From: a virus
Strand: one strand, 5' to 3'
DNA: 43,385 bases
Virus record (IMG/VR): IMGVR_UViG_3300032296_000135
Span: 1 to 43,385 of that record
Positions 1,359 through 30,564 of this stretch are shown here, in pieces. The position numbers were made by a program, and so were the translations under genes. Below the pieces are notes generated by a model. The model saw only the letters and a list, made by a program, of their open reading frames with translations. It made no database searches and had not been told where the DNA came from. Each line of letters begins with the position of its first letter. The stretch's first letter is position 1.

Positions 1359-4300
1359 ATGGCAGACCAAAGACGCAAAACGGCTAACCTTTCGATGCGC
1401 GAGACCCAAGAGGGCTTAGCGCCCCATGGGATGCGACACAGTGGCGAGGGCGTTAAAGGCTCGGGCTACTTTGGCTACCTGCCTGCAAGCGATGGCTACG
1501 CTACCGAGATGTCGGCTGAGAATGAGGGCGGCGAGTTCCCGCTGTTGGTGCCGACGCTATCTAAAGAAGAGATCGAGCACCTGCTGGCTGGCAACTCCCC
1601 GACCGATGAGATTTTCCGCAAGGCGGTTGAGCACGCTGAGCGCCGCAAGAAAGAGGGTAAGAGCCCGTATGCTGACCCGACTGGCTTGAAGCATCCGGTA
1701 CCGAAGGCTGATGGAGGGTCTGTCTATTCCCCACGACCGGGGCTGGTGTTCGTTGGGCAAGAGCATGGTCAGATACCTGAGTTGCCGCCGGATGTGAAGG
1801 AGATGGCAAACAAAGTCGGGGCTTTCTACGAAGGCTCTGGTGGTGATAGGTTGCCCGACATTAGATATAGAGGCTCATGGGATGACGCCGCATCTAAGTC
1901 TGTGAAGGGCTATCCGCCTGAGTACCTGTATACCATCTTCACAAACACGGATGTCAACAAGCAGAAAGATGCGCTCGTCGGTGACGACACCATTTTCAAC
2001 AGCTTGCTAAAAAATCAACGTCAGGTAGGATACTTCAAGGATCGGCGTTTCAGTCGGAAGGAGCTTGAGAACTTCCTTGGCTCAATGGGGTCGGAGTTTT
2101 TAAGCGGAAGTAAGAACATAGCGACTGAAAGCAATGTTGAGGATTTCTTAAAGCGCGGCGAGAAGTTGATGTGGGAATCTGGCAAAACCTCGGCGCGAGA
2201 CATGGCGGATAAAGCGAATGAGTCGCGGCAGCGATGGTTGTTAAGTCAACCGAAAGGCGTGTTCTTCGTTGGATCTGATCATCTTGAGAAGTTAAAAGAG
2301 TTGCATGGCGCAGGTAAAGGCGCGTCGGTGCAAAAGAAAGCCGAAGGCGGCACTGTGAATTACGAACTCCCTGACGATGTCACCCCCCAAAATTGGCGCG
2401 ATCAGTTAGAGACGAATGTCTTGAACGATGCCCGTGCATTGATTGGCGTGAAAGAGGGTGGCCCGATCAACCTTGACCGCTTGCTTGAGAAGGCGGTGCG
2501 TAAAGCAAACGGTGGCCCTGCCAATCTTGACGAGATGTTGAGCTGGGCGGTGGCTAAGCACAACCACAAGATGAAGAAGGGCGGCGAGGTCAGCCAGACG
2601 TTCCCGCTCAAGAAAGATGAAGAAGAAGAGCGGATGTTCAGCCCTGCCCCGCTGAAGATCCCTGAGCCGATTACCGACGCGCTAGAGGCATTGAAGCGGC
2701 AGTTCGAGAAAGAGAAGCGCTCAATGTCGAAGCCGGGTGCCGTGCAGGATGTCTTGATGCGTGGCCCTGTGGCGATGTATGCGGGTGCGCCTGCTGACAT
2801 TGTTGGCATGGGCGGTGAGCTGTTGGACTACGTGCAGACAAAGATCCCGGGGATGCGTAAGCCTGCGTCGGTGATGGACACGGGGCCTGAGAAGGTTCCC
2901 CCGATGGGCTATGCGCCTGCGTTTCCGCTGACGCCTAATGAGCCGTATGGCACCGAGGCGGCACAAGAGCTGATGAAGCAGTCAGGGCTGACCACAGGCA
3001 CTGAGCGCCCGTTGTTTGAAATAACTTCAGGGGTGGCTGCACCGTTTGCTGGTATGGCTGCGATGAAGACGGGTAAGGCGTTGGCACCGACGGCGAAAGA
3101 GATGACGCAGTTCGCGCTTGAGAAGAGCATGGAACCGTACCAGATGAACATCATCAAGCCAGAGGGTGGCAACTGGGTGCGGGGCGCGGCTGAGAAGTAT
3201 TTGAAAGACCTGCGCTACGACGAGAGCCTGATCGACCCAGTAGGCGTTATGAATCCGACTGCCAAGGCGGAGGAGACCGCGAGGGTGGCTTCGATGAATA
3301 ACTTCGTCGATAAGAAGTTATCTCGGTATCTCGTAAACCAGATGGGAACGCCTTCTGATCCTTTGCGCTTGCAGGCGGATACGTGGGCTGAGACGCAGAA
3401 GAAGTTGCTGGCTGACAAAGACAAGCAGATCGACAAGGTCAGGTCAGATATTCGCAAAGCGCAGCAGGCGCGTGGCGTTGATCCTGAAGTGCTGACCAGA
3501 TCGCAGGCGAGGTTGCGTGAGTTGCAGAAAGAGCGCGAGCTGATTAACAACCGCAAGGGTTTGCATTTTGATCCGGGGCACGACGACTTTAGGCAAAGAA
3601 TAGGTAGGGACGCAAGATCAAGAGCTGAAATGCCACAGGAAAACCTCGGTGTAACGGAGGTTGCAAAAAATTGGGAAGATTTAAGCGACTCGGCAATTCG
3701 GCAAGGCGCTTATAAAGACATGATTCCTATCGTTGAAAACAGTGTGTCGGCTCAGCTTGCAGCAAAAACGCCGGAGGAATACAACACAATATTTCAACAA
3801 CTGCAGCGCGAAAGTCTTGAAAAAGCAGGCGGTCAGTTTGCTGTAGATAACCCAGAAGCGCTTGCGTATGGAATGAATTCTGGCAGGCCTGCAAGAGACT
3901 TGCGCTTTGACCACATGATGGACGAGATTGATAACGCCCTACGTCCAAGTCAAGGCTTGCCTGATTACCTCCAGCTAAAGTCCAAAGACCTAGACAAGAT
4001 GAGCGTGGCTCAAGTTTCTGAGCACGTAGACAAGATCAACGCATGGCGTGCTAGTCAGAAGGCTGAAGTAGATGCAGCGCGTGCTGCGAATGCTGCGACG
4101 GTTGAGCACAAGGCTTACGACGTAGTGCCGGGTACGGACATTCCTAACGACCAAGGGCTGCGGTGGGTAGAGATCAAAGCGCCAGAAAATATGGATTTGC
4201 CGGAAGGATATTCTATTAAACATGATCCATCACGCGACCGAAATGGGAACATAGTACGGGAGGGGTACCGTTTAGTTTCGCCTGAAGGAAAAATGATTGA

Positions 4301-5117
4301 CTATGGCTCAACCCCAGAAGAGGCAATAAAAAATTATTTTGGCAAACAAGTTGTCGAAGACGCCCTGAAGTACGAAGGCGAAATCCTCCAGCACTGCGTT
4401 GGTGGCTACTGCCCTGATGTGATTGAGGGTAGGTCTCGCATCTTCTCACTCAGGGATGCTGACGGGCGGCCTCATGCGACGATTGAAACAAAGCCGATTA
4501 AAGAAACTGGAAGAAGAAGTGACATTCCAGATGACATCAAGGAAGAACTTCGTGCGCGTGGCGAAGCAATTGGAAGGCAAAAAGCTGATGAGCTTGGGTT
4601 TGGGCCATATAGCGAAGAGGCCGCTTTGGAAGAAAAAATTGCTATTGCTCAACTGATGGATGATTGGTTATATGAAAACCCTCTCGTGTCAGAAAAAATT
4701 GCTCAAATCAAAGGCCTCCAAAATAAAAAGCCAAACGATGAGTACATGCCGTTCATCCAAGACTTTGTGAAGAGCGGTCAATGGTCAGACGTAGGCGACT
4801 TACATAACACGGGATTGTTCAAAGTGACTGAAGGTCAGAAGCTGCCGGGCTTTGCTCAAGAGATTCCGCCGGGCTTCTACACCTTGGATGACTTAAAAAA
4901 GATGGCGGTTGAGAACGAGATGCCGCAAGAGATTCTCGACAACTGGATGAGCAAATTAGATGAACAACGCTTCCGCTTCCTTGGTATGAAGCGCGGTGGT
5001 CGCGTCACTAAAGCCGACCTTGAGCAACAGTACCGCATGGCCTTCGGTGGCGGCGTATTTAACACTGATCCTGACATCACTGATTCTGGTCGGATCATTC
5101 CTGAGCACACAATTTAG
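1359..5117 (+). CDS. Giant PcfJ-domain polyvalent protein between terminase and portal
   Basis: This 1252-residue protein has an unusual place, since terminase and portal genes are normally adjacent. The N-terminal ~110 residues (SGEGVKGSGYFGYLP, then FPLLVPTLSKEEI) look like a conserved phage module. Residues ~110-420 carry spaced Gly-Gly motifs (KADGGSVY, KKAEGGTV, MKKGGEV). A Gly/Ala-rich hydrophobic stretch lies near 470-590 and charged helical stretches at 660-900. Near the C-terminus HCVGGY (residues 1012-1017) followed by RIFSLRDADG and ATIETKP matches the PcfJ-like domain signature. The protein ends with more Gly-Gly motifs (MKRGGRV, AFGGGVF). I infer a virion or ejected multidomain protein; its reaction is unknown. 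Base composition shifts to AT-rich in patches (about 3600-3860, 4190-4730), suggesting mosaic origin. The ATG at 1359 lacks a clear ribosome site; ATG 1395 is an alternative. Confidence 0.8.
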   Translation: MADQRRKTANLSMRETQEGLAPHGMRHSGEGVKGSGYFGYLPASDGYATEMSAENEGGEFPLLVPTLSKEEIEHLLAGNSPTDEIFRKAVEHAERRKKEGKSPYADPTGLKHPVPKADGGSVYSPRPGLVFVGQEHGQIPELPPDVKEMANKVGAFYEGSGGDRLPDIRYRGSWDDAASKSVKGYPPEYLYTIFTNTDVNKQKDALVGDDTIFNSLLKNQRQVGYFKDRRFSRKELENFLGSMGSEFLSGSKNIATESNVEDFLKRGEKLMWESGKTSARDMADKANESRQRWLLSQPKGVFFVGSDHLEKLKELHGAGKGASVQKKAEGGTVNYELPDDVTPQNWRDQLETNVLNDARALIGVKEGGPINLDRLLEKAVRKANGGPANLDEMLSWAVAKHNHKMKKGGEVSQTFPLKKDEEEERMFSPAPLKIPEPITDALEALKRQFEKEKRSMSKPGAVQDVLMRGPVAMYAGAPADIVGMGGELLDYVQTKIPGMRKPASVMDTGPEKVPPMGYAPAFPLTPNEPYGTEAAQELMKQSGLTTGTERPLFEITSGVAAPFAGMAAMKTGKALAPTAKEMTQFALEKSMEPYQMNIIKPEGGNWVRGAAEKYLKDLRYDESLIDPVGVMNPTAKAEETARVASMNNFVDKKLSRYLVNQMGTPSDPLRLQADTWAETQKKLLADKDKQIDKVRSDIRKAQQARGVDPEVLTRSQARLRELQKERELINNRKGLHFDPGHDDFRQRIGRDARSRAEMPQENLGVTEVAKNWEDLSDSAIRQGAYKDMIPIVENSVSAQLAAKTPEEYNTIFQQLQRESLEKAGGQFAVDNPEALAYGMNSGRPARDLRFDHMMDEIDNALRPSQGLPDYLQLKSKDLDKMSVAQVSEHVDKINAWRASQKAEVDAARAANAATVEHKAYDVVPGTDIPNDQGLRWVEIKAPENMDLPEGYSIKHDPSRDRNGNIVREGYRLVSPEGKMIDYGSTPEEAIKNYFGKQVVEDALKYEGEILQHCVGGYCPDVIEGRSRIFSLRDADGRPHATIETKPIKETGRRSDIPDDIKEELRARGEAIGRQKADELGFGPYSEEAALEEKIAIAQLMDDWLYENPLVSEKIAQIKGLQNKKPNDEYMPFIQDFVKSGQWSDVGDLHNTGLFKVTEGQKLPGFAQEIPPGFYTLDDLKKMAVENEMPQEILDNWMSKLDEQRFRFLGMKRGGRVTKADLEQQYRMAFGGGVFNTDPDITDSGRIIPEHTI

Positions 5118-18614: not shown

Positions 18615-19397
18615 ATGGCACAAGCCGGATATACGCCGATTGTCATCTACCACAGCACGACGGGTTCGGCTGTTCCTACTGCTGGGAACCTAGCCCCCGG
18701 AGAGTTAGGGCTGAACATCGCAGACATGAAGCTGTACTGCGAAAACTCCTCGGGTGTGGTGACTTTGCTGGCCTCTGCTGCGGGTGCTTCTGGGGATGTG
18801 ACGTTAGCCGGTAATAACGCTTTTACAGGCGCAAACACCTTTTATAACGGAACAGGCCAGACGTTTGGCACGGCGACATCGACACAAGACGGATTGATTC
18901 TGGCAGGTCGAGCTGGTGGTAGTTCTTCGTATCGCGTGACATTACAGCCGGGAACTTTGTCAGCCAGCAGGGCGGTGACTTTCCCTGATTCGGATACAAC
19001 GGTTCCCATCGCATCTCAAACCCTGACATTCTCTGGCCCAACCGCTGCAAGAACCTATACGCTGCCGGATGAGGCTTCTTCGCTCGGGTTTAGGAACATT
19101 CCTGCGGTAGCTGATAAAACCACCTCTTACAGCCTGCAGACCTCAGACGTAGGTCGAGTGGTGGGCGTTGGTTCTGGCGGCTCGATTACGATCCCTGATG
19201 CGACGTTTTCTGCGGGTGATGCGGTCATCATCTTCAACAATACGACCGCAGGGATTACGATTACTTGCTCGATCACGACGGCTTATATTGCTGGAACGGA
19301 TACTGACAAGGCGACGATGACACTAGCGACTCGTGGTATTGCAAGCATACTGTTCGTATCTGGCACTGTGTGTGTTGTTACAGGGAATGTCACCTAA
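18615..19397 (+). CDS. Tail fibre protein with Mtd-like N-terminus
   Basis: The 260-residue protein begins with an attachment domain (AVPTAGNLAPGELGLNIADM, then KLYCENSSGVVTLLA) of the kind found at the N-terminus of many phage tropism proteins. A beta-helical fibre stretch follows (TFYNGTGQTFGTATSTQDGL), then TYTLPDEASSLGF, then a C-terminal module of about 68 residues (SITIPDATFSAGDAVIIFNN to the end). A diverged copy of that last module makes up the small gene at 26936. The start follows TAAGGAGTAAGAA; the stop overlaps the next start (TAATG). Host recognition is the likely role. Confidence 0.78.
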   Translation: MAQAGYTPIVIYHSTTGSAVPTAGNLAPGELGLNIADMKLYCENSSGVVTLLASAAGASGDVTLAGNNAFTGANTFYNGTGQTFGTATSTQDGLILAGRAGGSSSYRVTLQPGTLSASRAVTFPDSDTTVPIASQTLTFSGPTAARTYTLPDEASSLGFRNIPAVADKTTSYSLQTSDVGRVVGVGSGGSITIPDATFSAGDAVIIFNNTTAGITITCSITTAYIAGTDTDKATMTLATRGIASILFVSGTVCVVTGNVT

Positions 19398-21559
19398 TGG
19401 CGCTCGTACTCAAAAACAGAGTCAAGTCCACTACCACGACAACAGGTACGGGGACGATTACCCTTGGTGCCGCTCCGGCGGGGTATCAAGATTTTTCTGT
19501 GATTGGTAGTCCATCTAGTGGATGGGACACATCTGTTACTTTTTACGACCAATCATTTAGTGTTTTTGCTCAAGTAAGTAATCCGCAAGGCTTGTTTTTT
19601 AAGCCAGACGGTTTGAAAATGTATGTTGCAGGGCCTTCCATTGTTAATGAATATGATTTGTCTACGGCATGGGATGTTTCGACCGCCACTTATCTACAAA
19701 ATTTTTCAGTAAGTGCTAATGCACAAGGGTTATTTTTTAAGCCAGATGGTTTAAAAATGTATGTTGTTGACAGCTCTGGAAACGTTGTCAAAGAGTATGA
19801 TTTGTCATCTGCTTGGAACATTACTACAGCCAGTTTTCTTCAAAATTTTTCTGTAGCCACGCAAGAAACTGATCCTTTCTCAATATTTTTTAAGCCTGAC
19901 GGATTAAAAATGTATGTGGCAGGCTCTAATGAAAGCGTATATGAATATGATTTGTCTTCTGCTTGGAATATAAGCACGGCTTCTTATCTTCAAAGCGGTA
20001 GCGTTTTAACGGTTGGATCGAACACGCGTGGGTTATTTTTTAAACCTGACGGTTTGGCTCTGTTTATTCTGGCAGCAAATGATCAGCTTGGGTATTACAA
20101 GTTATCAACCGCTTGGAATGTTTCAACAATTTCCTATCAATCACAAGTTACGCTAACTACATCAGGCGGATCAATAACTGGCACAGATTTGTTTTTTAAG
20201 CCAGATGGTTCATTGATGTATGTTGTAGATGATGGAATAAGTGATGCGTTTGTAGCGCAATATGATGTTGGGGGTAATAATACCTACTACACCATCGTAG
20301 GTGGAACACAGTGGGAAGTCGGTATCGGTTTTGCTACCACAAGTGGACGAGGTCTCTTCCGCACACAGGTATTTGGCTCTTCCAACAGTGGCGCGAAGGT
20401 AGACTTTGCGGCAGGCACTAAAGATGTGTTGTGTGCTTACCCAGCTGCGGCGATGCCTCTAGGTGTGCCGTACTGCGATGATAGTGAGATAGGTACTGAT
20501 CTCTCAGGCTGGACAGCGTTCCAAGCAGCGTTGAATAACGGTGTGGCAGGTGGCACGACGTTCGGGAACAATAATACAAACGGCATAACAAGCACGTATG
20601 CAATAACTGATACAAGTGGAAGCAACAAGTATGCGGGCGGTGTTTTAGCGCCTAACGGCGACATTCACATGGTGTTATACAGTGGCGTTACCGTTGGGCA
20701 AAAAATATCAATTACTGGTGTTGTTTCAACATATTCCTTGATACAAACTACTGGCGCTTATACAGGAGGTGTTCTTGCTCCTAATGGCGATATTCACTTT
20801 ATTCCCAGACAGTTATCTGCTGGAAGCGCGGTAGGTCAAAAAATAAACGCCTCTGGCGTTGTCTCTACTTATTCATTGGCTTACACAGCCGTATCAGAAA
20901 TTTATTTTGGTGGTGTTTTGTCAGCAAGCGGAGAGGTGCATTTTGTTCCACACAGCGGAGTTAGAGGACAAAAAATTTCAACTGCTGGCGTTGTATCAAC
21001 ATATTCGTTGATCTACACCACAACAAATGCATACGCAGGCGGGGTATTAGCCCCTAATGGTGATATACATTTTGTTCCTCATAGGGCGGCAGTAGGGCAA
21101 AAAATATCATCAGCCGGAGTCGTTTCTACATATTCTTTGGTTTATACAACTCCTCTTGCTTATTGCGGGGGTGTTGTATCACCGAATGGAGATATTCATT
21201 TTATTCCGGCCTATGCAGATAGAGGGCAAAAAATATCAGTTACAGGTGTTGTGTCTACCTACTCATTAATTAGAACTACTGTTAATAGTTATTTTGGTGG
21301 TGTGTTAGCTCCAAATGGAGACATTCATTTTGTTCCCTATGATGCTCCTGTAGGGCAAAAAGTTTCAGCAACAGGCGTTGTTAGCACTTATTCTCTTGCA
21401 TTTACTGTGCCGAGCGCATATCAAGGTGGCGTCTTATCTCCAAATGGAAATATTTATTTTATTCCTGCAATAGCTTCAAGAGGTATGCAAATCTCCACCA
21501 ATCCCGGTCAGCCGCTCGGCCCCGGTGTCTGCCTCAGTTCTTTCCTGAACAAGTTCTAG
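19397..21559 (+). CDS. Propeller tail fibre A (5-bladed plus 7-bladed)
   Basis: The 720-residue protein has a ~33-residue N-terminus shared with the next two genes (LKNRVKSTTTTTGTGTITLG). Five repeats of ~50 residues follow, each with FFKPDG and a strand MYV, then YDLS-AW-STA-YLQ. A linker domain (YYTIVGGTQWEVGIG, then VDFAAGTKDVL) leads to seven repeats of ~42 residues with GGVLAPNGDIHF, GQKIS and GVVSTYSL. Repeat numbers and a split half-repeat before the first copy suggest closed 5- and 7-bladed beta-propellers. The C-terminus ends CLSSFLNKF. I infer a receptor-binding fibre. ATG 19397 overlaps the previous stop; an in-frame GTG at 19370 is unlikely. Repeat regions are AT-richer than the ends. 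Confidence 0.85.
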   Translation: MALVLKNRVKSTTTTTGTGTITLGAAPAGYQDFSVIGSPSSGWDTSVTFYDQSFSVFAQVSNPQGLFFKPDGLKMYVAGPSIVNEYDLSTAWDVSTATYLQNFSVSANAQGLFFKPDGLKMYVVDSSGNVVKEYDLSSAWNITTASFLQNFSVATQETDPFSIFFKPDGLKMYVAGSNESVYEYDLSSAWNISTASYLQSGSVLTVGSNTRGLFFKPDGLALFILAANDQLGYYKLSTAWNVSTISYQSQVTLTTSGGSITGTDLFFKPDGSLMYVVDDGISDAFVAQYDVGGNNTYYTIVGGTQWEVGIGFATTSGRGLFRTQVFGSSNSGAKVDFAAGTKDVLCAYPAAAMPLGVPYCDDSEIGTDLSGWTAFQAALNNGVAGGTTFGNNNTNGITSTYAITDTSGSNKYAGGVLAPNGDIHMVLYSGVTVGQKISITGVVSTYSLIQTTGAYTGGVLAPNGDIHFIPRQLSAGSAVGQKINASGVVSTYSLAYTAVSEIYFGGVLSASGEVHFVPHSGVRGQKISTAGVVSTYSLIYTTTNAYAGGVLAPNGDIHFVPHRAAVGQKISSAGVVSTYSLVYTTPLAYCGGVVSPNGDIHFIPAYADRGQKISVTGVVSTYSLIRTTVNSYFGGVLAPNGDIHFVPYDAPVGQKVSATGVVSTYSLAFTVPSAYQGGVLSPNGNIYFIPAIASRGMQISTNPGQPLGPGVCLSSFLNKF
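19520..20276 (+). repeat. Five FFKPDG propeller repeats, fibre A
   Basis: Five in-frame repeats of about 50 codons, each centred on FFKPDG plus a strand ending MYV or a variant (the fourth reads ALFIL). The chain before the first copy (SGWDTSVTFYDQ) could supply the closing strand of the last blade. Confidence 0.85.
20581..21500 (+). repeat. Seven GGVLAPNGDIHF propeller repeats, fibre A
   Basis: Seven in-frame repeats of about 42 codons. A half repeat (ITSTYAITDT) precedes the first GG copy, as expected for velcro closure of a ring of blades. Residues after HFIP and after STYSL vary most between copies. Confidence 0.87.
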
Positions 21560-21569
21560 GATCATTGTC

Positions 21570-22952
21570 ATGGCGTTTGTTACCAAAGATCGCATAAAAG
21601 TTACGAGCACCACGACAGGGACAGGTACGTTCACGCTAGGGGCAGCATCTACTGGCTATCAGAACTTTTCCGGCGTGGGCGATGGCAATCAGACCTATTA
21701 CACCATCGTAGGTGGAACTCAGTGGGAAGTAGGAATAGGCACGTATACCGCTAGTGGTACGACCTTATCCCGCGATACCGTGCTGGCTTCGTCTACCGGA
21801 TCTGTGATTGACTTTGCGGCGGGGACGAAAGATGTCTACGTACCGCAGCCTTCTGAGAACACACAGGGATCAGCGCCGACAGGGGACAACAGTTCTATTG
21901 GCACGGATGGCGTAGCATTCGACAACTTCCAGAAGAACTTGTACCAGAGCATCAACGCTGGGGTGACTTTTAGGAATAACGGTGTTGCGGGTGTGGTAAG
22001 TACGTTTAGTTTGGTTTATACAGGTGGCAGTTATTGGGGTGGTGTGTTTGCCCCTAGCGGAGATATACACTTTATCCCTAATGGAGCCGCTGTTGGTCAA
22101 AAAATAAATTCTTCTGGTGTTGTCTCTACTTATTCACTGGTTTACACCACAAGCGATGCGTATCAAGGCGGCGCATTGGCAGCAAATGGCGACATTCATT
22201 TTATTCCCAAAGACGCAAATAGAGGTCAAAAAGTAAACGCATCAGGCGTTGTTTCCACTTATTCTTTGGTTTATACGACAGCAGGTGCTTACACAGGCGG
22301 TGTTTTGTCTCCAAATGGAGATGTTCATTTTATTCCCCTAAATGCCAATAGGGGTCAAAAGGTGTCATCGGCGGGCGTTGTTTCTACTTATTCTTTAGTT
22401 TATACGAGAACAAACGCATATTTAGGTGGAGTTCTTGCACCGAACGGGGACATTCATTTTGTTCCTTATTATGCAAATAGGGGTCAAAAAATATCAGCCG
22501 CTGGGGTTGTGTCTACATATTCGCTGGTTTATACGTTATCTGAGGGATATGCTGGAGGCATATTGTCTCCAAACGGAGATATACACTTTGTTCCACAAAA
22601 GGCAAACGTAGGTCAAAAAATATCCTCAGCAGGAGTCGTATCCACTTATTCTTTAGTTTATACAGCAACAACAAACAAGTATGATGGTGGAGTTTTAGCT
22701 CCTAATGGTGATATTCATTTTGTTCCTTGCGATGCTAATGTTGGACAAAAAATATCAGCCATTGGTGTTGTATCTACATATTCATTAGTTTATACAACAA
22801 CAGGAGCATATCGAGGTGGTGTATTAAATTCAAGTGGTGATATTTATTTTGTTAAATCAACGAGTGCAACAGTAGGCCAAAAAATCTCCACCTGCGCCGC
22901 CATACCCTTCGGCCTTGACACCTGCCTAAGCTCATACCTCAATAAGTATTAA
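21570..22952 (+). CDS. Propeller tail fibre B (7-bladed only)
   Basis: The 460-residue paralogue has the shared N-terminus (TKDRIKVTSTTTGTGTFTLG), goes directly into the linker domain (YYTIVGGTQWEVGIGTYTAS, then DFAAGTKDVYV) and then into seven GGVLAPNGDIHF-type repeats preceded by a half repeat (GVVSTFSLVYTGG). It ends CLSSYLNKY. The 5-bladed propeller of its two neighbours is absent with clean edges. The gene lies ten bases after fibre A, with only a weak AGGAT before the ATG. I infer a shorter receptor-binding fibre that may form mixed or alternative fibres with A and C. Confidence 0.85.
   Translation: MAFVTKDRIKVTSTTTGTGTFTLGAASTGYQNFSGVGDGNQTYYTIVGGTQWEVGIGTYTASGTTLSRDTVLASSTGSVIDFAAGTKDVYVPQPSENTQGSAPTGDNSSIGTDGVAFDNFQKNLYQSINAGVTFRNNGVAGVVSTFSLVYTGGSYWGGVFAPSGDIHFIPNGAAVGQKINSSGVVSTYSLVYTTSDAYQGGALAANGDIHFIPKDANRGQKVNASGVVSTYSLVYTTAGAYTGGVLSPNGDVHFIPLNANRGQKVSSAGVVSTYSLVYTRTNAYLGGVLAPNGDIHFVPYYANRGQKISAAGVVSTYSLVYTLSEGYAGGILSPNGDIHFVPQKANVGQKISSAGVVSTYSLVYTATTNKYDGGVLAPNGDIHFVPCDANVGQKISAIGVVSTYSLVYTTTGAYRGGVLNSSGDIYFVKSTSATVGQKISTCAAIPFGLDTCLSSYLNKY
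21981..22890 (+). repeat. Seven GGVLAPNGDIHF propeller repeats, fibre B
   Basis: Seven in-frame copies plus a leading half repeat. Near-identical peptide units are encoded by clearly different synonymous codons in each copy. Confidence 0.87.
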
Positions 22953-22962
22953 GGATCACACC

Positions 22963-25140
22963 ATGCCTTATGTCGTTAAAGATAGAGTAAAAGTAACAAG
23001 CACAACGACTGGTACTGGCACGTTCACGCTCGGCGCGGCGGTCACAGGATTCCAAGGGTTTTCTTCGTTAGTTCCTAGTCCAGCATGGAATATCACATAT
23101 TCTAGTTATTTGCAGCTTAAAGACGTAGGGGCGCAAGAAACATCCCCGCAGGGTATATTTTTTAAGCCAGATGGTTTAAAGATGTATGTTGTTGGCGCAA
23201 CTGGCGATGACGTTAATGAATACGATTTGTCCTCCGCATGGGATATATCAACAGCCACATACCTTCAAGTTTTTTCGGTATCAGCCCAAGACACCTCGCC
23301 ACGAGATTTGTTTTTCAAGCCCGATGGTTTAAAGATGTATGTCGTTGGAGCAACCAACGATTCGGTTTATGAATATGATTTGTCATCTGCTTGGAATGTT
23401 TCTACAGCGTCTTACTTACAAACAAAATCCGTATCAGCACAAGACACAACCCCAACTGGAGTATTTTTTAAAGATGATGGCACCAAAATGTATGTTGTTG
23501 GTGGGACTGGAAATGACATAAATGAGTATGATTTATCGTCAGCTTGGGACATTTCCACTGCATCTTATTTAAGAAATTTTAGTGTTGTATCACAAACAAC
23601 ATTGCCACAGGGTGTGTTTTTTAAGTCGGACGGCTTAAAGATGTACATAATAGCCGCCAATAACATTTTTGAATATTCCTTAGGAACTGCTTGGAATATT
23701 TCAACTGCTGCGTATTCTTCTTTGTTTGAAACTAATTTACAAGGAACTGGAATATTTTTTAAGTCGGACGGCTTAAAGTTTTATATAACTGAAACTAGTA
23801 ATGCTGACGTTCGTGAATATGATTTAGCAACTTCCATTAATACTTATTATTGCCTCACCAATGGTACAGATTGGGAGGTTGGTATTGGCGAAGTTTCATA
23901 TCCCGGAACATCTTTGATTCGTAGCACTGTCCTTGAATCATCCAATAGCAACAACAAAGTAGATTGGAGTGCCGGAACTAAGGATGTGTTCTGTACTTTC
24001 CCCGCAGACGCGACAGAAGGAACAGTACCGCAGGGGGATACCAGTCAGGTAGGCACTGATCTGGTGGCGTGGACAAACCTGAAGAAAGAGCTAGACCGTA
24101 CCGTCATCAACGGTGTGCCGTACAACAATAATGGGCTTGGCGGCGTTTACAGTACGTATAGTTTGATTAATACGACTAGCTCAGGGACGGAGTTTTATAT
24201 AGGCGGCGTATTGGCGACTAACGGAGACATACACTTTATTCCTGTATATGCAACTAGAGGACAAAAAGTATCTTCATCTGGCGTTGTATCTACTTACGCA
24301 TTAGTTTACACAACAGGCGAAGGATATACGGGAGGTGTATTAGCTTCAAATGGAGACATACATTTTGTCCCACAAAAGGCAGCCGTTGGTCAAAAAATAT
24401 CTGCTTCAGGGGTCGTTTCTACATATTCGTTAGTAACAACTGGCACCCCGGGATATATGGGTGGTGTATTAGCGCCTAATGGTGATATACACTTTATTCC
24501 ATATTCTGCTTCGGTTGGGCAAAAAGTATCAGCAGCAGGTGTGGTATCAACTTATTCGTTGGTGTATACGACCGGCAATGCTTATTTTGGCGGAGTTTTA
24601 GCGCCAAATGGTGATATACATTTTGTTCCATTTAGTGCAAACAGGGGGCAAAAAATATCATCAGCGGGTGTTGTATCTACTTATTCATTAGTTTCAACAT
24701 CAACAGTAAATGGTCAATATATGGGCGGCGTTTTGGCAGCAAACGGCGACATACATTTTGTTCCTAGAGATGCTAGTCGAGGGCAAAAAATATCAGCGGC
24801 TGGTGTGGTTTCTACTTATTCTTTAATTTATACGACCGCAAACACCGCTTTCACTGGTGGAGTTCTTGCGCCAAATGGTGACATCCATTTTGTCCCATTT
24901 ACAGCTCCGGTTGGACAAAAGGTATCCGCATCGGGTGTTGTCTCAACATACAGTTTACTTAGTGTTCCCGGAGGGGGGGTATCTCAATATCTTGCTGGCG
25001 CGGTATTATCTCCAAGTGGAGATATTTATTTTGTTCCGGGTGGAGCATGGCCCAATTCAACAATGCCCGGTCTAAAAATATCCACCGGCACAACAAGAAA
25101 TATAGGCTACGCCCTATCGCCGTTCTTCAATAAATTTTAA
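22963..25140 (+). CDS. Propeller tail fibre C (5-bladed plus 7-bladed)
   Basis: The 725-residue protein repeats the layout of fibre A: shared N-terminus (VKDRVKVTSTTTGTGTFTLG), five FFK-DG repeats (FFKPDG twice, FFKDDG once, FFKSDG twice), linker domain (TYYCLTNGTDWEVGIG, then VDWSAGTKDVFC), seven GGVLAPNGDIHF repeats with a leading half repeat (GGVYSTYSLINTT), and the end GYALSPFFNKF. The ATG follows AAGGATCACACC. Repeat-rich parts are AT-rich while gene ends match the genome's composition. I infer a third receptor-binding fibre; the three genes look like products of duplication followed by divergence and domain loss or gain. Confidence 0.85.
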   Translation: MPYVVKDRVKVTSTTTGTGTFTLGAAVTGFQGFSSLVPSPAWNITYSSYLQLKDVGAQETSPQGIFFKPDGLKMYVVGATGDDVNEYDLSSAWDISTATYLQVFSVSAQDTSPRDLFFKPDGLKMYVVGATNDSVYEYDLSSAWNVSTASYLQTKSVSAQDTTPTGVFFKDDGTKMYVVGGTGNDINEYDLSSAWDISTASYLRNFSVVSQTTLPQGVFFKSDGLKMYIIAANNIFEYSLGTAWNISTAAYSSLFETNLQGTGIFFKSDGLKFYITETSNADVREYDLATSINTYYCLTNGTDWEVGIGEVSYPGTSLIRSTVLESSNSNNKVDWSAGTKDVFCTFPADATEGTVPQGDTSQVGTDLVAWTNLKKELDRTVINGVPYNNNGLGGVYSTYSLINTTSSGTEFYIGGVLATNGDIHFIPVYATRGQKVSSSGVVSTYALVYTTGEGYTGGVLASNGDIHFVPQKAAVGQKISASGVVSTYSLVTTGTPGYMGGVLAPNGDIHFIPYSASVGQKVSAAGVVSTYSLVYTTGNAYFGGVLAPNGDIHFVPFSANRGQKISSAGVVSTYSLVSTSTVNGQYMGGVLAANGDIHFVPRDASRGQKISAAGVVSTYSLIYTTANTAFTGGVLAPNGDIHFVPFTAPVGQKVSASGVVSTYSLLSVPGGGVSQYLAGAVLSPSGDIYFVPGGAWPNSTMPGLKISTGTTRNIGYALSPFFNKF
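23080..23835 (+). repeat. Five FFK-DG propeller repeats, fibre C
   Basis: Five copies of about 50 codons with the consensus GIFFKPDGLKMYVVG then EYDLSSAW-ISTASYLQ. An opening segment (AWNITYSSYLQ) matches the second half of the unit and could close the ring. Confidence 0.86.
24139..25086 (+). repeat. Seven GGVLAPNGDIHF propeller repeats, fibre C
   Basis: Seven copies of about 42 codons plus a leading half repeat. The last copy is diverged (YLAGAVLSPSGDIYFVP) and has a small insertion before GLKIS. Confidence 0.86.
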
Positions 25141-25161
25141 CCACCACACAAAGGAGAGAGT

Positions 25162-26514
25162 GTGTACAACCGAGAGAAAATCATCGCCGCGATGCAGGAA
25201 ATCTACGACGAGTCTAAAACTATTAAGCCATACGTCGTGATTGCACAACCTCGTCGCAACTTAGAAGAAACAGCCGCACAGAATTTCGATGGGTATGACG
25301 GTCTGCACGTAGACCTGATGGGCTTCTCACATGGCTTTTGCAATATCGGCGGTGAGAAGGTAGACGTTGCCCGTAACTACCTGATTGAGCAGGCGCTGGA
25401 GTCTGGTGCCAAGTACATGCTCTTTATCGGTGAGGATACGGTTGTTCCTTACGACGCATTCAAGAAGCTGATGCGTACGTCCGAGCAGTATCCTGACGCT
25501 GTGATCACGGGTGTGTACTACATCAAGTGTTCAGACGCGATGATCATGGTGCGTGAGGGTGACTGGATCACAATCCCGAACGTCGATCCGGGGCAGATCA
25601 TTGACGCTTGGCAGACTGGCATGGACATCATGCTAATCCCGATTAAGATCCTGCAAGACATGAAGGCAGAGAACCCTGACTTGCCCTTCTGCTGTATTGG
25701 CAACAACATTAATGACGAGATACCGTTCATTGGTGAGGACAACTTCTTTGTTCACCGTTTGCACAAGCGCGGCACCAAGCTGCTAGTCAATACGGACGTT
25801 CAGTGCCTGCACATGGACTTGGCGACAGGTATGTACACGGCGCATCCGTCGGTGGATTTGAAGAACTACTACACCAACATCCCGCCTACCAGACCGCTGA
25901 CGCTGGATGATAAAGACTTTATTGATCGGCGCTGGGCTGATCGTTTGCCTAAAGGCACTGGCCCCGGTGCTGGATATGCGGCAATCCTTGCTCAGATGCA
26001 GGAGGAAGGCCAGCCTATCCGCTTCAACATGGGTTGCGGTCGTGATCGGTTGGAAGGCTATATGGGTGTCGATATGCACAGCGACACCGACATCAAGATG
26101 GACATCATGGAGCTTGATCTGCCAGAGGGCTGTGCAGATGAGATATTTGGCAGTCATGTGATTGAGCATTTCCCGCAGCATCGAGCGCCGGGCGTATTGG
26201 CTAACTGGCACAAGACGTTGAAAGATGGCGGCAAGCTGGTGCTGGAGACGCCTGACCTTGAGGGGTTGTGCCGAGACTATTTGGAGCAGAGCGGCGCAGA
26301 TCAGCACATGACGGCGATGTGTATTTTTGGGGCGCATGTAGATAGGATTACGCCTGAGACTGAGAAGAACGGTGCGTTGTCTCCTCATCTGTGGGGCTAT
26401 ACCCCTAAGTCATTGGCAGACTTGTGCGCCCATGTGGGATTCAAAGACATCCAGATACTGCCGCCGACTGGGCAGCATCCGGGCAAGAACTTTAGATTGG
26501 AGGCTACAAAATGA
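25162..26514 (+). CDS. Glycosyltransferase-methyltransferase fusion protein
   Basis: The 450-residue protein joins two enzyme-like halves. Residues ~1-250 look like a GT-A glycosyltransferase: VDVARNYLIEQALESGAKYM leads to FIGEDTVVP (Glu91-Asp92) in the place of the metal-binding acidic motif, then ITGVYYIK and FIGEDNFFVHRLHKRGTKLL. Residues ~285-445 are a class I SAM-dependent methyltransferase: motif I FNMGCGRDRLEGYMGVD (288 onward), the acidic MDIMELDLP, then SHVIEHF and LKDGGKLVLETPDL. I infer modification of a glycan, on host surface, virion or DNA; the target is unknown. Position just after the fibre genes suggests a fibre- or receptor-related target. Start is GTG after AAAGGAGAGA. The end overlaps the next gene by four bases (ATGA). 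Confidence 0.82.
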   Translation: MYNREKIIAAMQEIYDESKTIKPYVVIAQPRRNLEETAAQNFDGYDGLHVDLMGFSHGFCNIGGEKVDVARNYLIEQALESGAKYMLFIGEDTVVPYDAFKKLMRTSEQYPDAVITGVYYIKCSDAMIMVREGDWITIPNVDPGQIIDAWQTGMDIMLIPIKILQDMKAENPDLPFCCIGNNINDEIPFIGEDNFFVHRLHKRGTKLLVNTDVQCLHMDLATGMYTAHPSVDLKNYYTNIPPTRPLTLDDKDFIDRRWADRLPKGTGPGAGYAAILAQMQEEGQPIRFNMGCGRDRLEGYMGVDMHSDTDIKMDIMELDLPEGCADEIFGSHVIEHFPQHRAPGVLANWHKTLKDGGKLVLETPDLEGLCRDYLEQSGADQHMTAMCIFGAHVDRITPETEKNGALSPHLWGYTPKSLADLCAHVGFKDIQILPPTGQHPGKNFRLEATK

Positions 26515-26939
26515 GCATTTCACTTGAGGGCGTTGCGTCTAACCTAGCGGGTGAAGAGCGTGCGCTGGCTTATCTGAAGGTTGAGCATAACGGGCAGACG
26601 TATGACTGGACGCTGTTTATTCCAGCAGGTGCTGACCTGTCGGCTTATATCGCATCCAAAGAGGCGGCGATCTATGCTGACATTGATGCCAAAGAAGCTG
26701 CTTGGGCTGTTGCCCCTAAGACTCGGGAGATTCCTGATCCTATGGGCGGTGAAACGCGGACGGTGGATATTGATAAGTCCGAGGTCGTGCGGCCTGACAA
26801 CCCTGACTACTACGCTCTGCGTCGTGCCGAGTATCCATCTTTGGCTGACCAGTTGGATGCGATGTGGAAGGGTGGCGAGGCGGCGACTGCTATGACAGCC
26901 AAGATTGCTGAGGTTAAAGCTAAGTATCCGAAGACATGA
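26511..26939 (+). CDS. Putative tail assembly protein, XkdW-like C-terminus
   Basis: The 142-residue protein has an N-terminal beta-rich part (ALAYLKVEHNGQTYDWTLFI), a central linker, and a C-terminal helix with YPSLADQLDAMWKGG. The pattern Y-P-S/P-x-x-D-Q-L-D-x-x-W/Y recurs in phage tail-region proteins such as XkdW. These often lie beside fibre genes and may act as assembly helpers, but this is not proven here. It is coupled by ATGA overlaps to both neighbours. No signal peptide or membrane segment is visible. Confidence 0.68.
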   Translation: MSISLEGVASNLAGEERALAYLKVEHNGQTYDWTLFIPAGADLSAYIASKEAAIYADIDAKEAAWAVAPKTREIPDPMGGETRTVDIDKSEVVRPDNPDYYALRRAEYPSLADQLDAMWKGGEAATAMTAKIAEVKAKYPKT

Positions 26940-28172: not shown

Positions 28173-28685
28173 ATGCTGACTCTCATCTCTACTATTGGCG
28201 GCTATATCGTCGCCCTGTTCCCCAGACTTTTTGACATGCTGCAAGACCGTGCTGACAAGAAGCACGAGCTAGACATCCTGCACATGCAGATGCAGCAGCA
28301 ACTCCGGTTGACGGACAAAGGCTACTCGCCGGCGGATAAGACGGAAGAAGTCCGAGAGAACGATGAGCAGGATCACCAGCAGTACATGGCTCAGATGGGC
28401 ATGATCTACGGCAACCAAGAGAAACTCTTGGAATCCTCGTCCCAGTGGGTCAAAGATATGACCGCCGCTACTCGGCCTTTCGTGACCTTCATCTTCGTGT
28501 TTGAGCTAGTCCTGATCAACCTGCTGACCATGCTGTGGATCTTCCTACACGGCGACAAGGTCACTTCAATCGGTGAGCTGATTCAGATCATGGAGATTGT
28601 GTTCGACGCTGACGAGATGGCGCTCTTAGGAACGATCATCGCTATGTGGTTTGGCTCCCGTGGCAACTCGAAGGCTGGCAAATGA
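28173..28685 (+). CDS. Holin, three-membrane-segment type
   Basis: The 170-residue protein has hydrophobic segments near residues 2-22 (LTLISTIGGYIVALFPRLFD), ~102-128 (TRPFVTFIFVFELVLINLLT) and ~150-163 (ALLGTIIAMWFGSRG), separated by a charged, Gln-rich stretch. This fits the GTA-type three-segment holins, which share the T-R-P motif before the second segment. Holins open the inner membrane at a set time and let lysozyme reach the cell wall. The end overlaps the lysozyme start (ATGA), which supports coupling. Confidence 0.78.
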   Translation: MLTLISTIGGYIVALFPRLFDMLQDRADKKHELDILHMQMQQQLRLTDKGYSPADKTEEVRENDEQDHQQYMAQMGMIYGNQEKLLESSSQWVKDMTAATRPFVTFIFVFELVLINLLTMLWIFLHGDKVTSIGELIQIMEIVFDADEMALLGTIIAMWFGSRGNSKAGK

Positions 28686-29167
28686 AACTGCCGGTTGCCA
28701 CAATTGCAATGATCAAGCACCACGAGGGGGTAAGATACAAGCCCTACAAGTGTCCGGCTAAGTTGTGGACTATCGGGGTGGGGCATGTGCTCTACCCTGA
28801 GCAGGGCAAGATGCCAATTGATCAACGAGATAAGTTTGCCCTAAAAGCAGAGGACTCCCGTGTATTTAGCAAAGACGAAGTGGATACGATCCTTGAGAAA
28901 GACCTACAGCGCTTTGTCGCTGGTGTTCTTCGTTACTGCCCTGACCATCTTAACGAAAATCGCTTGGGGGCGTTGGTCAGCTTTGCATTCAATGTTGGGC
29001 TAGGCACCCTCCAGAGATCTACCCTGCGGCAGAAGCACAATCGCGGCGACTTTGAGGGGGTCAAGCAGGAGTTCCTGAAGTTCACCAAGGCTGGCGGCAA
29101 AGTCTTGCCGGGTCTGGTGAAGCGCCGGAATGATGAGATTTCCCTGTACTTCGCGGAGCCCAAGTGA
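28682..29167 (+). CDS. Endolysin, GH24 lysozyme with E-C-T active site
   Basis: The 161-residue protein is a T4-type lysozyme that cleaves the glycan of peptidoglycan. The catalytic region reads HHEGVRYKPYKCPAKLWTIG: Glu15 is present and Thr30 is at the expected +15 position, but the +9 position, Asp20 in T4, is Cys24. ALVSFAFNVGLGTL and LVKRRNDEISLY are further GH24 hallmarks. There is no signal peptide, so release depends on the holin. ATG 28682 overlaps the holin stop (ATGA); an in-frame ATG at 28646 lies inside the holin gene and is unlikely. The stop overlaps the spanin start (GTGA). Confidence 0.9.
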   Translation: MKLPVATIAMIKHHEGVRYKPYKCPAKLWTIGVGHVLYPEQGKMPIDQRDKFALKAEDSRVFSKDEVDTILEKDLQRFVAGVLRYCPDHLNENRLGALVSFAFNVGLGTLQRSTLRQKHNRGDFEGVKQEFLKFTKAGGKVLPGLVKRRNDEISLYFAEPK

Positions 29168-29637: not shown

Positions 29638-30013
29638 GTCAGATCCGGCTAAATGGAAGCGCATTGTTGCTTCTGTGAAAGCCTCTGGGAAGGGTGGATC
29701 TCCGGGGCAGTGGAGCGCCCGGAAGGCTCAATTAGCAACTCAGAAATATAAAGGTGCCGGAGGGGGTTACAAAGGCCCAAAAAAGGCAGATAATTCACTT
29801 GCAAAGTGGACAAAAGAAGACTGGGGTACGAAGTCTGGCAAACCGTCCACACAAGGTTCTGAGGCGACTGGCGAAAGATATTTGCCGAAGCAAGCCCGAG
29901 AAAAATTAACTCCTGCCGAGTACGGTGCTACGACCCGTGCCAAGAGAGAGGGTACTAAACAAGGCAAACAATTCGTCCCGCAGCCTGAATCTATCAAGAA
30001 AAAGGTGTGGTAA
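29621..30013 (+). CDS. DUF5872-like basic protein
   Basis: The 130-residue protein is rich in Lys and Gly. GKGGSPGQWSARKAQLATQK, then GAGGGYKGPK, and later WTKEDWGTKSGKPS, ERYLPKQAREKLTPAEY and TTRAKREGTKQGK match the pattern of DUF5872, a family known from phages and large viruses but without a known role. The composition suggests nucleic-acid binding or a packaged virion protein. The start lies inside the end of Rz (17-base overlap) and the stop overlaps the HNH gene start (TAATG). Confidence 0.78.
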   Translation: MSSAVKSDPAKWKRIVASVKASGKGGSPGQWSARKAQLATQKYKGAGGGYKGPKKADNSLAKWTKEDWGTKSGKPSTQGSEATGERYLPKQAREKLTPAEYGATTRAKREGTKQGKQFVPQPESIKKKVW

Positions 30014-30564
30014 TGACGACTGCCGCTGTATCAAAAAATGGGTTATTGGAAGGTTTCCATAAACACCACATAATTCCAAAACATCTTGGGGGCACTGATG
30101 ACCCCTCAAACTTGGTCGTTCTCCATCCGTATGACCATGCCATCGCTCACTTTGTCCGCTGGAAAATGTTTAAAACAGACGGGGATGCTTGGGCGTTTAA
30201 TCGTTTGAAGACTTGGCTAGATAACGGCGCTTCATCCGCTAAAGGTATGCGGCATTCTGAAAGCACAAAAGCCAAAATTTCCGCCGCAAAAAAAGGTAAG
30301 CCAAGCAATCGAAAAGGTGCAAAGCATACCGAAGAAACGATACAAAAAATGCGTGAGTCCCATCTTGGGCAGAAGGCTTGGAACGCTGGCTTGGTTGGCG
30401 CTCAAGTAGCTTGGAACAAAGGTGTTCAAGGCGCTCAAACGGCTTGGAATAAAGGTTTAAAAGGCGTCGTCAAATGGGATGATGAGGCAAAAGCCAAACA
30501 CTCAGAGAAGATAAAAAAGGTTTGGGAAAAACGTAAACAGGAGGCCGTATGCCAGCCGCTGTGA
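30013..30564 (+). CDS. HNH homing endonuclease with NUMOD3 repeats
   Basis: The 183-residue protein has an HNH nuclease core: HHIIPKHLGG (His18, His19), SNLVVLHPYDHAIAH with Asn33 and His42. NUMOD3-type DNA-binding repeats follow near residues 79-120 (HSESTKAKISAAKKGKP; HTEETIQKMRESHLGQ), then three W-N-x-G units (residues ~123-150). This is the layout of free-standing homing endonucleases that cut intron- or gene-free alleles and spread. The gene is AT-richer than its neighbours. It overlaps the next gene by 16 bases and contains that gene's ribosome site. ATG 30013 in a TAATG overlap is preferred to GTG 30007. Confidence 0.88.
   Translation: MTTAAVSKNGLLEGFHKHHIIPKHLGGTDDPSNLVVLHPYDHAIAHFVRWKMFKTDGDAWAFNRLKTWLDNGASSAKGMRHSESTKAKISAAKKGKPSNRKGAKHTEETIQKMRESHLGQKAWNAGLVGAQVAWNKGVQGAQTAWNKGLKGVVKWDDEAKAKHSEKIKKVWEKRKQEAVCQPL

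Follow-up and report, generated by a model that had tools for sequence, protein, structure and literature searches.

The closest described counterpart of the protein reported here is A064R of the chlorovirus PBCV-1, which combines two glycosyltransferase (GT) domains and a class I methyltransferase (MT) in one protein. The MT domain of A064R adds a 2-O-methyl group to the terminal rhamnose of the capsid glycan, and A061L, a separate chlorovirus MT, adds the next methyl to that glycan (PMC9614988). Few phage virions are known from experiment to be glycosylated, and the cases covered in the literature available to us concern the capsid and tail tube. Mycobacteriophages such as Che8 are reported to carry glycans on virion proteins, together with phage GT genes (cited in PMC11256854 and PMC12619734); the acceptors are capsid and tail-tube subunits, as opposed to the propeller fibres that we propose below. 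Searches of the literature available to us found no glycosylated tail fibre with a phage-encoded enzyme.

The window, meaning the whole stretch of DNA analysed, is a virus record of 43,385 bases that is classed as linear. Its structural proteins are closest to those of MW202545, an uncultured 57-kb phage (capsid protein 90% identical), and next closest to those of Caulobacter phages such as GB2A and RW (capsid protein 77%). Like A064R, one of its gene products joins a viral GT-A domain to a C-terminal class I SAM methyltransferase in a single soluble chain. A064R, however, comes from a eukaryotic virus, has two GT domains rather than one, and has been shown biochemically to act on an N-glycan of the major capsid protein. 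We would therefore describe the fusion protein as working like A064R in outline, without filing it as a member of that family.

Other known systems resemble one aspect of the locus each. STIV A197 is also a viral GT-A protein and, of the PDB entries, comes closest in fold to the GT half (E=4.9e-8, 15% identity), but it is a single-domain protein of an archaeal virus, and TM-scores of 0.46/0.63 indicate a shared fold and not the same specificity. A 788-aa protein of an uncultured phage, annotated "Methyltransferase FkbM", has a GT domain that matches our GT half in fold only, and its GT and MT families are different. The systems for Gtr O-antigen seroconversion rely on membrane GTs and a flippase, whereas the protein studied here has no membrane segment and no such neighbour genes. 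What is new here is the near-obligate linkage of the GT half to a single family of beta-propeller tail fibres. The striking part is this linkage together with the exchangeable methyltransferase, not the fusion itself.

The two halves of the fusion protein

The genes and domains considered below, all on the plus strand, are as follows.

19370..21559, +, first propeller tail fibre, 729 aa
21570..22952, +, second propeller tail fibre, 460 aa; the N-terminal ~95 residues match annotated tail fibres
22963..25140, +, third propeller tail fibre, 725 aa, with two propeller-type repeat regions; directly upstream of the fusion gene
25150..25159, +, Shine-Dalgarno-like AAAGGAGAGA, read directly from the sequence
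25162..26514, +, GT-methyltransferase fusion gene, 450 aa, GTG start
25162..25956, +, GT-A glycosyltransferase half, residues 1-265, defined by conservation, model and fold matches
26014..26511, +, class I SAM methyltransferase half, about residues 285-450, with NMGCG motif I, D304 and SHVIEH
26511..26939, +, small protein, 142 aa, phrog_9114, translationally coupled to the fusion gene; in most but not all loci

The reading frame is exactly that given in a preliminary description of this DNA. Its GTG is preceded by the Shine-Dalgarno-like AAAGGAG, and its stop overlaps the start of the next gene in an ATGA at 26511. Scans of the window for Rfam families and tRNAs gave no hits. The first IMG/VR scan returned 63 relatives, most of them 67-99% identical over the full length, and later IMG/VR scans with the GT half added further fusion and GT relatives. 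By the Nei-Gojobori method, dN/dS between the window and close relatives was 0.016-0.059 in the GT half, against 0.044-0.112 in the MT half; these values use only pairs with estimable dS, several of which are near saturation. Both halves are maintained under strong purifying selection, and the low dN/dS together with the 63 relatives argues that the open reading frame is not a chance one. Pattern scans found no relatives of the GT in GTDB genomes, and phage records held no relative of the whole fusion protein, with only weak matches to the halves separately, so hosts and cultured relatives are uninformative about function.

We found the GT half difficult to place by sequence. Its match to Pfam Glycos_transf_2 (E=0.03, 14.7 bits) falls below the gathering cut-off of 23.3, and we therefore do not file it under CAZy GT2; it also matches the PHROG family phrog_34859, "glycosyltransferase", at 3.4e-6. 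PDB sequence searches with this half gave designed TIM barrels and a portal protein, and nothing useful. A full-length model from 19 sequences was poor in the GT half (pLDDT 67.6), which a deeper, GT-only alignment with 28 diverse relatives mended, giving an AlphaFold2 model with a pLDDT of 92.8 and a pTM of 0.89. After A197, the best PDB fold matches of this model were SpsA and the collagen glycosyltransferases COLGALT1 and LH3, and Foldseek assigned a probability of 1.00 to SpsA, A197 and COLGALT1, which points to a GT-A (SpsA-like) fold. Among viral structures, the best matches were phage proteins called GTA-type. With TM-scores near 0.4-0.6, these comparisons support the modelled GT-A fold but do not extend to specificity.

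Residues of catalytic type are conserved across 69 distinct full-length GTs. The invariant residues are Q29, P30, R32, D68, N72, D92, T93, G191, D193, H217 and H228, and they lie in the motifs QPxR, DxARN (one exception), G-E/D-D-T (90-93), GED (191-193, one exception) and QCLH (214-217), with H228 beyond them. The DxD region directly follows a strand at 85-89: the last Asp (D92) is present in 69/69, position 91 is E or D (57/12), and the place of the usual first Asp is taken by Gly90 (68/69), which counts against the function proposed below. An acidic ED-type motif with a later His is also present (E192 in 68/69, D193 and H217 in 69/69), and these three residues probably have a catalytic role. 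The highest 19-residue hydropathy value in the protein is 1.17, under the threshold of 1.6.

The MT half was easier to classify. It passes the Pfam cut-offs for Methyltransf_23 (E=5.8e-7, 29.8 bits against 27) and Methyltransf_11 (E=7.8e-5, 23.7 bits against 21.2), and its model matches class I SAM methyltransferases in the PDB. An NCBIfam match of the fusion protein to CmoB was meaningless. Among 47 distinct proteins that script-based sorting placed in the MT11 group, G291 and G293 of motif I are kept in 46, as is D304, the sole exception being a protein that reads FNISEQ, of the type found without motif I at locus L185. The preliminary description had proposed a GT-A-like half with an E-D acidic motif joined to a SAM methyltransferase half in one 450-residue chain, and had suggested structure prediction of each half. 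Pfam now bears this out for the MT half and the GT-A model and the retained GED motif for the GT half, both predicted folds agree with it, and loss of key catalytic-type residues in both halves was not seen across homologues. GT plus methyltransferase chemistry is likely.

Linkage of the glycosyltransferase to a family of propeller tail fibres

Seven-blade-like repeats of the form VSTYSLVYT...GGVLAPNGDIHFVP are common to all three upstream genes (19370-25140). In the middle gene, the N-terminal ~95 residues match the N-termini of annotated tail fibres from Roseobacter, Methylophilales and other phages, which identifies these genes as tail fibres with a propeller end. Both long fibres (22963-25140 and 19370-21559) carry a second, different repeat region of the FKPDGLKMYVVG type ahead of the shared propeller. 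The propeller fibres end in a near-invariant [FL]NK[FYL], with a loose form in 171 of 178 distinct C-termini from related loci; this ending may form a closing strand or act as a tag for recognition.

The fusion gene had been described as lying beside fibre genes and between these and the lysis genes. It does lie beside the fibres, which form a tandem array ending 21 bases upstream, but the lysis genes are further off (endolysin at 28646, Rz-like spanin at 29164). Of the neighbours on which the argument for a surface target was built, the lysis genes are uninformative; conservation extends to the upstream fibre and, in most cases, to the small protein downstream. Beyond the lysis genes, between them and a virion structural gene, is an HNH/homing endonuclease gene (30007-30564).

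To measure the linkage from the fibre side, we searched IMG/VR with the fibre family alone and then scored each locus for the GT. This gave 75 fibre loci, of which 12 end at or shortly after the fibre, leaving 63 that are informative. In 60 of these 63, the GT and the last fibre gene are 3-80 bases apart, a count that does not represent independent trials since the loci are related to one another. In one further locus (L251) the GT is elsewhere on the same contig, and in two from the same phage type (L304 and L305) there is no GT on the available contigs. From the GT side, nearly all GT loci with enough sequence have a propeller fibre ending directly before the GT; at L188 the GT is present and no fibre of the propeller family was found on the contig. 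The dependence is thus not absolute in either direction. Neither the GT nor a propeller fibre was found in MW202545 or GB2A, and a Cylindrospermopsis virus has a more distant propeller without a GT.

The pair of loci without a GT, L304 and L305, have three propeller fibres with the small downstream protein directly behind them and no GT in between. Theirs is the only such phage type found, and it offers a natural control.

The fibre-GT cassette occurs in contigs of ~60 kb, in contigs of 230 kb and adjoining T4-type connector genes, and such different contexts show that it moves between phage lineages as a unit. Across these very different phages the GT remains 52-68% identical to the copy at L190.

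Exchange of the methyltransferase partner

The methyltransferase is less constant than the GT. Besides the Methyltransf_11/23 type of the window, the GT is fused to Methyltransf_24, to a Methyltransf_24/RMNT_CmcI domain (L284) or to another Methyltransf_11 (L188); it stands alone at L113/L148, L143, L180, L182, L184, L189 and L190, and at L191 a separate MT gene overlaps its end. By BLASTP, the partner MTs form two groups, one MT11-like and one MT24/CmcI-like. On the GT tree, partner type needs 7 changes and the GT-alone forms need 6, with at least 4 of the latter forced by well-supported branches; these counts are approximate, since the branch leading to L284 is very long and a script made part of the class assignments. 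Sequence comparison thus shows the GT as a conserved core and the fused methyltransferase as an exchangeable add-on, replaced in other loci by other MTs, by extra GTs or by nothing.

Two features of the partners bear on their substrate. The fused MT of L284 matches RMNT_CmcI (rhamnosyl O-methyltransferase/CmcI) at 2.3e-7, and partners of the MT24 type have weak TylF matches, which suggests that the methyltransferases are relevant to sugars. At L185 (5001-8501) the fused MT lacks motif I, and behind it are a short gene, which resembles a glycosyltransferase by eye and has no Pfam hit, and a separate Methyltransf_24 gene that may replace the degenerate domain. Near some GT copies there are also additional GT, MT or GDP_Man_Dehyd genes, or a gene for a 2OG-Fe(II) oxygenase. 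These variable partners look like outer decorations.

Two loci have longer gene sets of this kind. Behind the GT of L182 (6321-10652) come genes for a 2OG-Fe(II) oxygenase and a GT2 protein, together with a separate and unrelated GT2-Methyltransf_11 fusion, which has the same GT-MT layout as the window protein but different GT and MT families, so that the similarity is at the level of fold only. At L116 (7845-12444), two genes follow a GT-MT24 fusion, one of the GDP-mannose-dehydratase/epimerase type and one for a GT2 protein; the fibres lie ~40 kb away on this contig.

Proposed function and candidate acceptors

We propose that the fusion protein is a soluble, bifunctional enzyme that would probably be expressed late and act in the cytosol on newly made fibre protein. 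The GT-A half would use a nucleotide sugar and attach the sugar, possibly the first one, to the adjacent beta-propeller tail-fibre protein, and the MT half would use SAM to O-methylate that sugar and so cap it. The GT core would travel with the fibre, and the cap would be exchanged between lineages. NAD-epimerase genes occur in only 2 of 12 related records (56-64 kb), so that in most of these phages the enzyme, if active, has to draw on sugar nucleotides of the host. That one protein adds and methylates a sugar, as originally suggested, fits all of our findings as a candidate chemistry drawn from sequence and model. The earlier list of targets (fibre, capsid or host surface) can be narrowed in favour of the fibre by the linkage to one fibre family; nothing that we found specifically supports a capsid glycan, a host polymer or control of re-adsorption. 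We give even odds to glycosylation and methyl capping of the fibre by this protein, and the third propeller fibre (22963..25140) is the favoured acceptor. The benefit may be in receptor binding, stability or shielding, for example.

A GT that is kept in such dissimilar phages needs an acceptor that is kept as well, and the fibre is the only shared element that we found, which is why we favour it. Linkage to a receptor-binding fibre is, however, also expected for an enzyme that alters the receptor. Superinfection functions are often encoded beside receptor-binding genes, and the enzyme could modify a host surface glycan or its cytosolic precursor that serves as the receptor of the fibre, so that infected cells and debris stop binding progeny. 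The tie between GT and fibre family would fit this explanation, as would the nucleotide-sugar and glycan genes in some GT neighbourhoods. We nevertheless consider this, the main rival reading, unlikely. The GT is conserved among phages whose hosts and surface glycans probably differ and which share the fibre, and its place among structural genes suggests late expression, when a surface change would be slow. The lack of a membrane segment, by which it differs from the Gtr systems, is as expected for a cytosolic enzyme acting on newly made protein. Decoration of another virion protein seems to us less likely again. The ATGA-coupled 142-aa protein is present in most loci and is a candidate, along with the capsid protein or another tail protein, and the known virion glycans of mycobacteriophages sit on capsid and tail tube (PMC12619734). 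The small protein was nonetheless not found at GT loci L284 and L301-L303, and the closest sequenced phage has the 90% identical capsid protein and no GT.

The remaining explanations change the substrate of one half or of both. The MT half could methylate protein or something else, with its fusion to the GT incidental, since Methyltransf_11 and Methyltransf_23 do not specify a substrate and motif I is missing from the fused MT of L185. We regard this as improbable: two MT groups (MT11-like and MT24/CmcI-like) are fused to the same GT, one fused type matches a sugar O-methyltransferase family, L191 has a separate MT gene, and another such gene lies behind the degenerate domain of L185. Several phage glycosyltransferases act on DNA (cited in PMC12619734), and the enzyme might likewise decorate a hypermodified base. 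This is very improbable, as PF00303 (thymidylate synthase/hydroxymethylase) is in 0 of the 12 related records of 56-64 kb, the gene lies in the fibre region and tracks the fibres, the fold matches are protein- and glycan-modifying GT-A enzymes, and no match to a known DNA-modifying enzyme was found.

Returning to the fibre as acceptor, we tentatively suggest a portable module of tailed phages in which a dedicated GT reads a conserved feature of the fibre, such as [FL]NK[FYL], and starts a glycan whose cap each lineage can swap; we consider this possible but rather doubtful. Swapping different O-methyltransferases or adding GTs would perhaps vary the decorated fibre, for a change in binding or for escape. 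A GT tied to the fibre and an exchanged methyl cap would make a clear, testable case of receptor-binding fibres modified post-translationally, and if the proposal is true, predicting host range from fibre sequence alone misses a layer.

Elsewhere in the window, an open reading frame of 1252 aa (1359-5117) between the terminase and portal genes has a short PcfJ-like match near its C-terminus.
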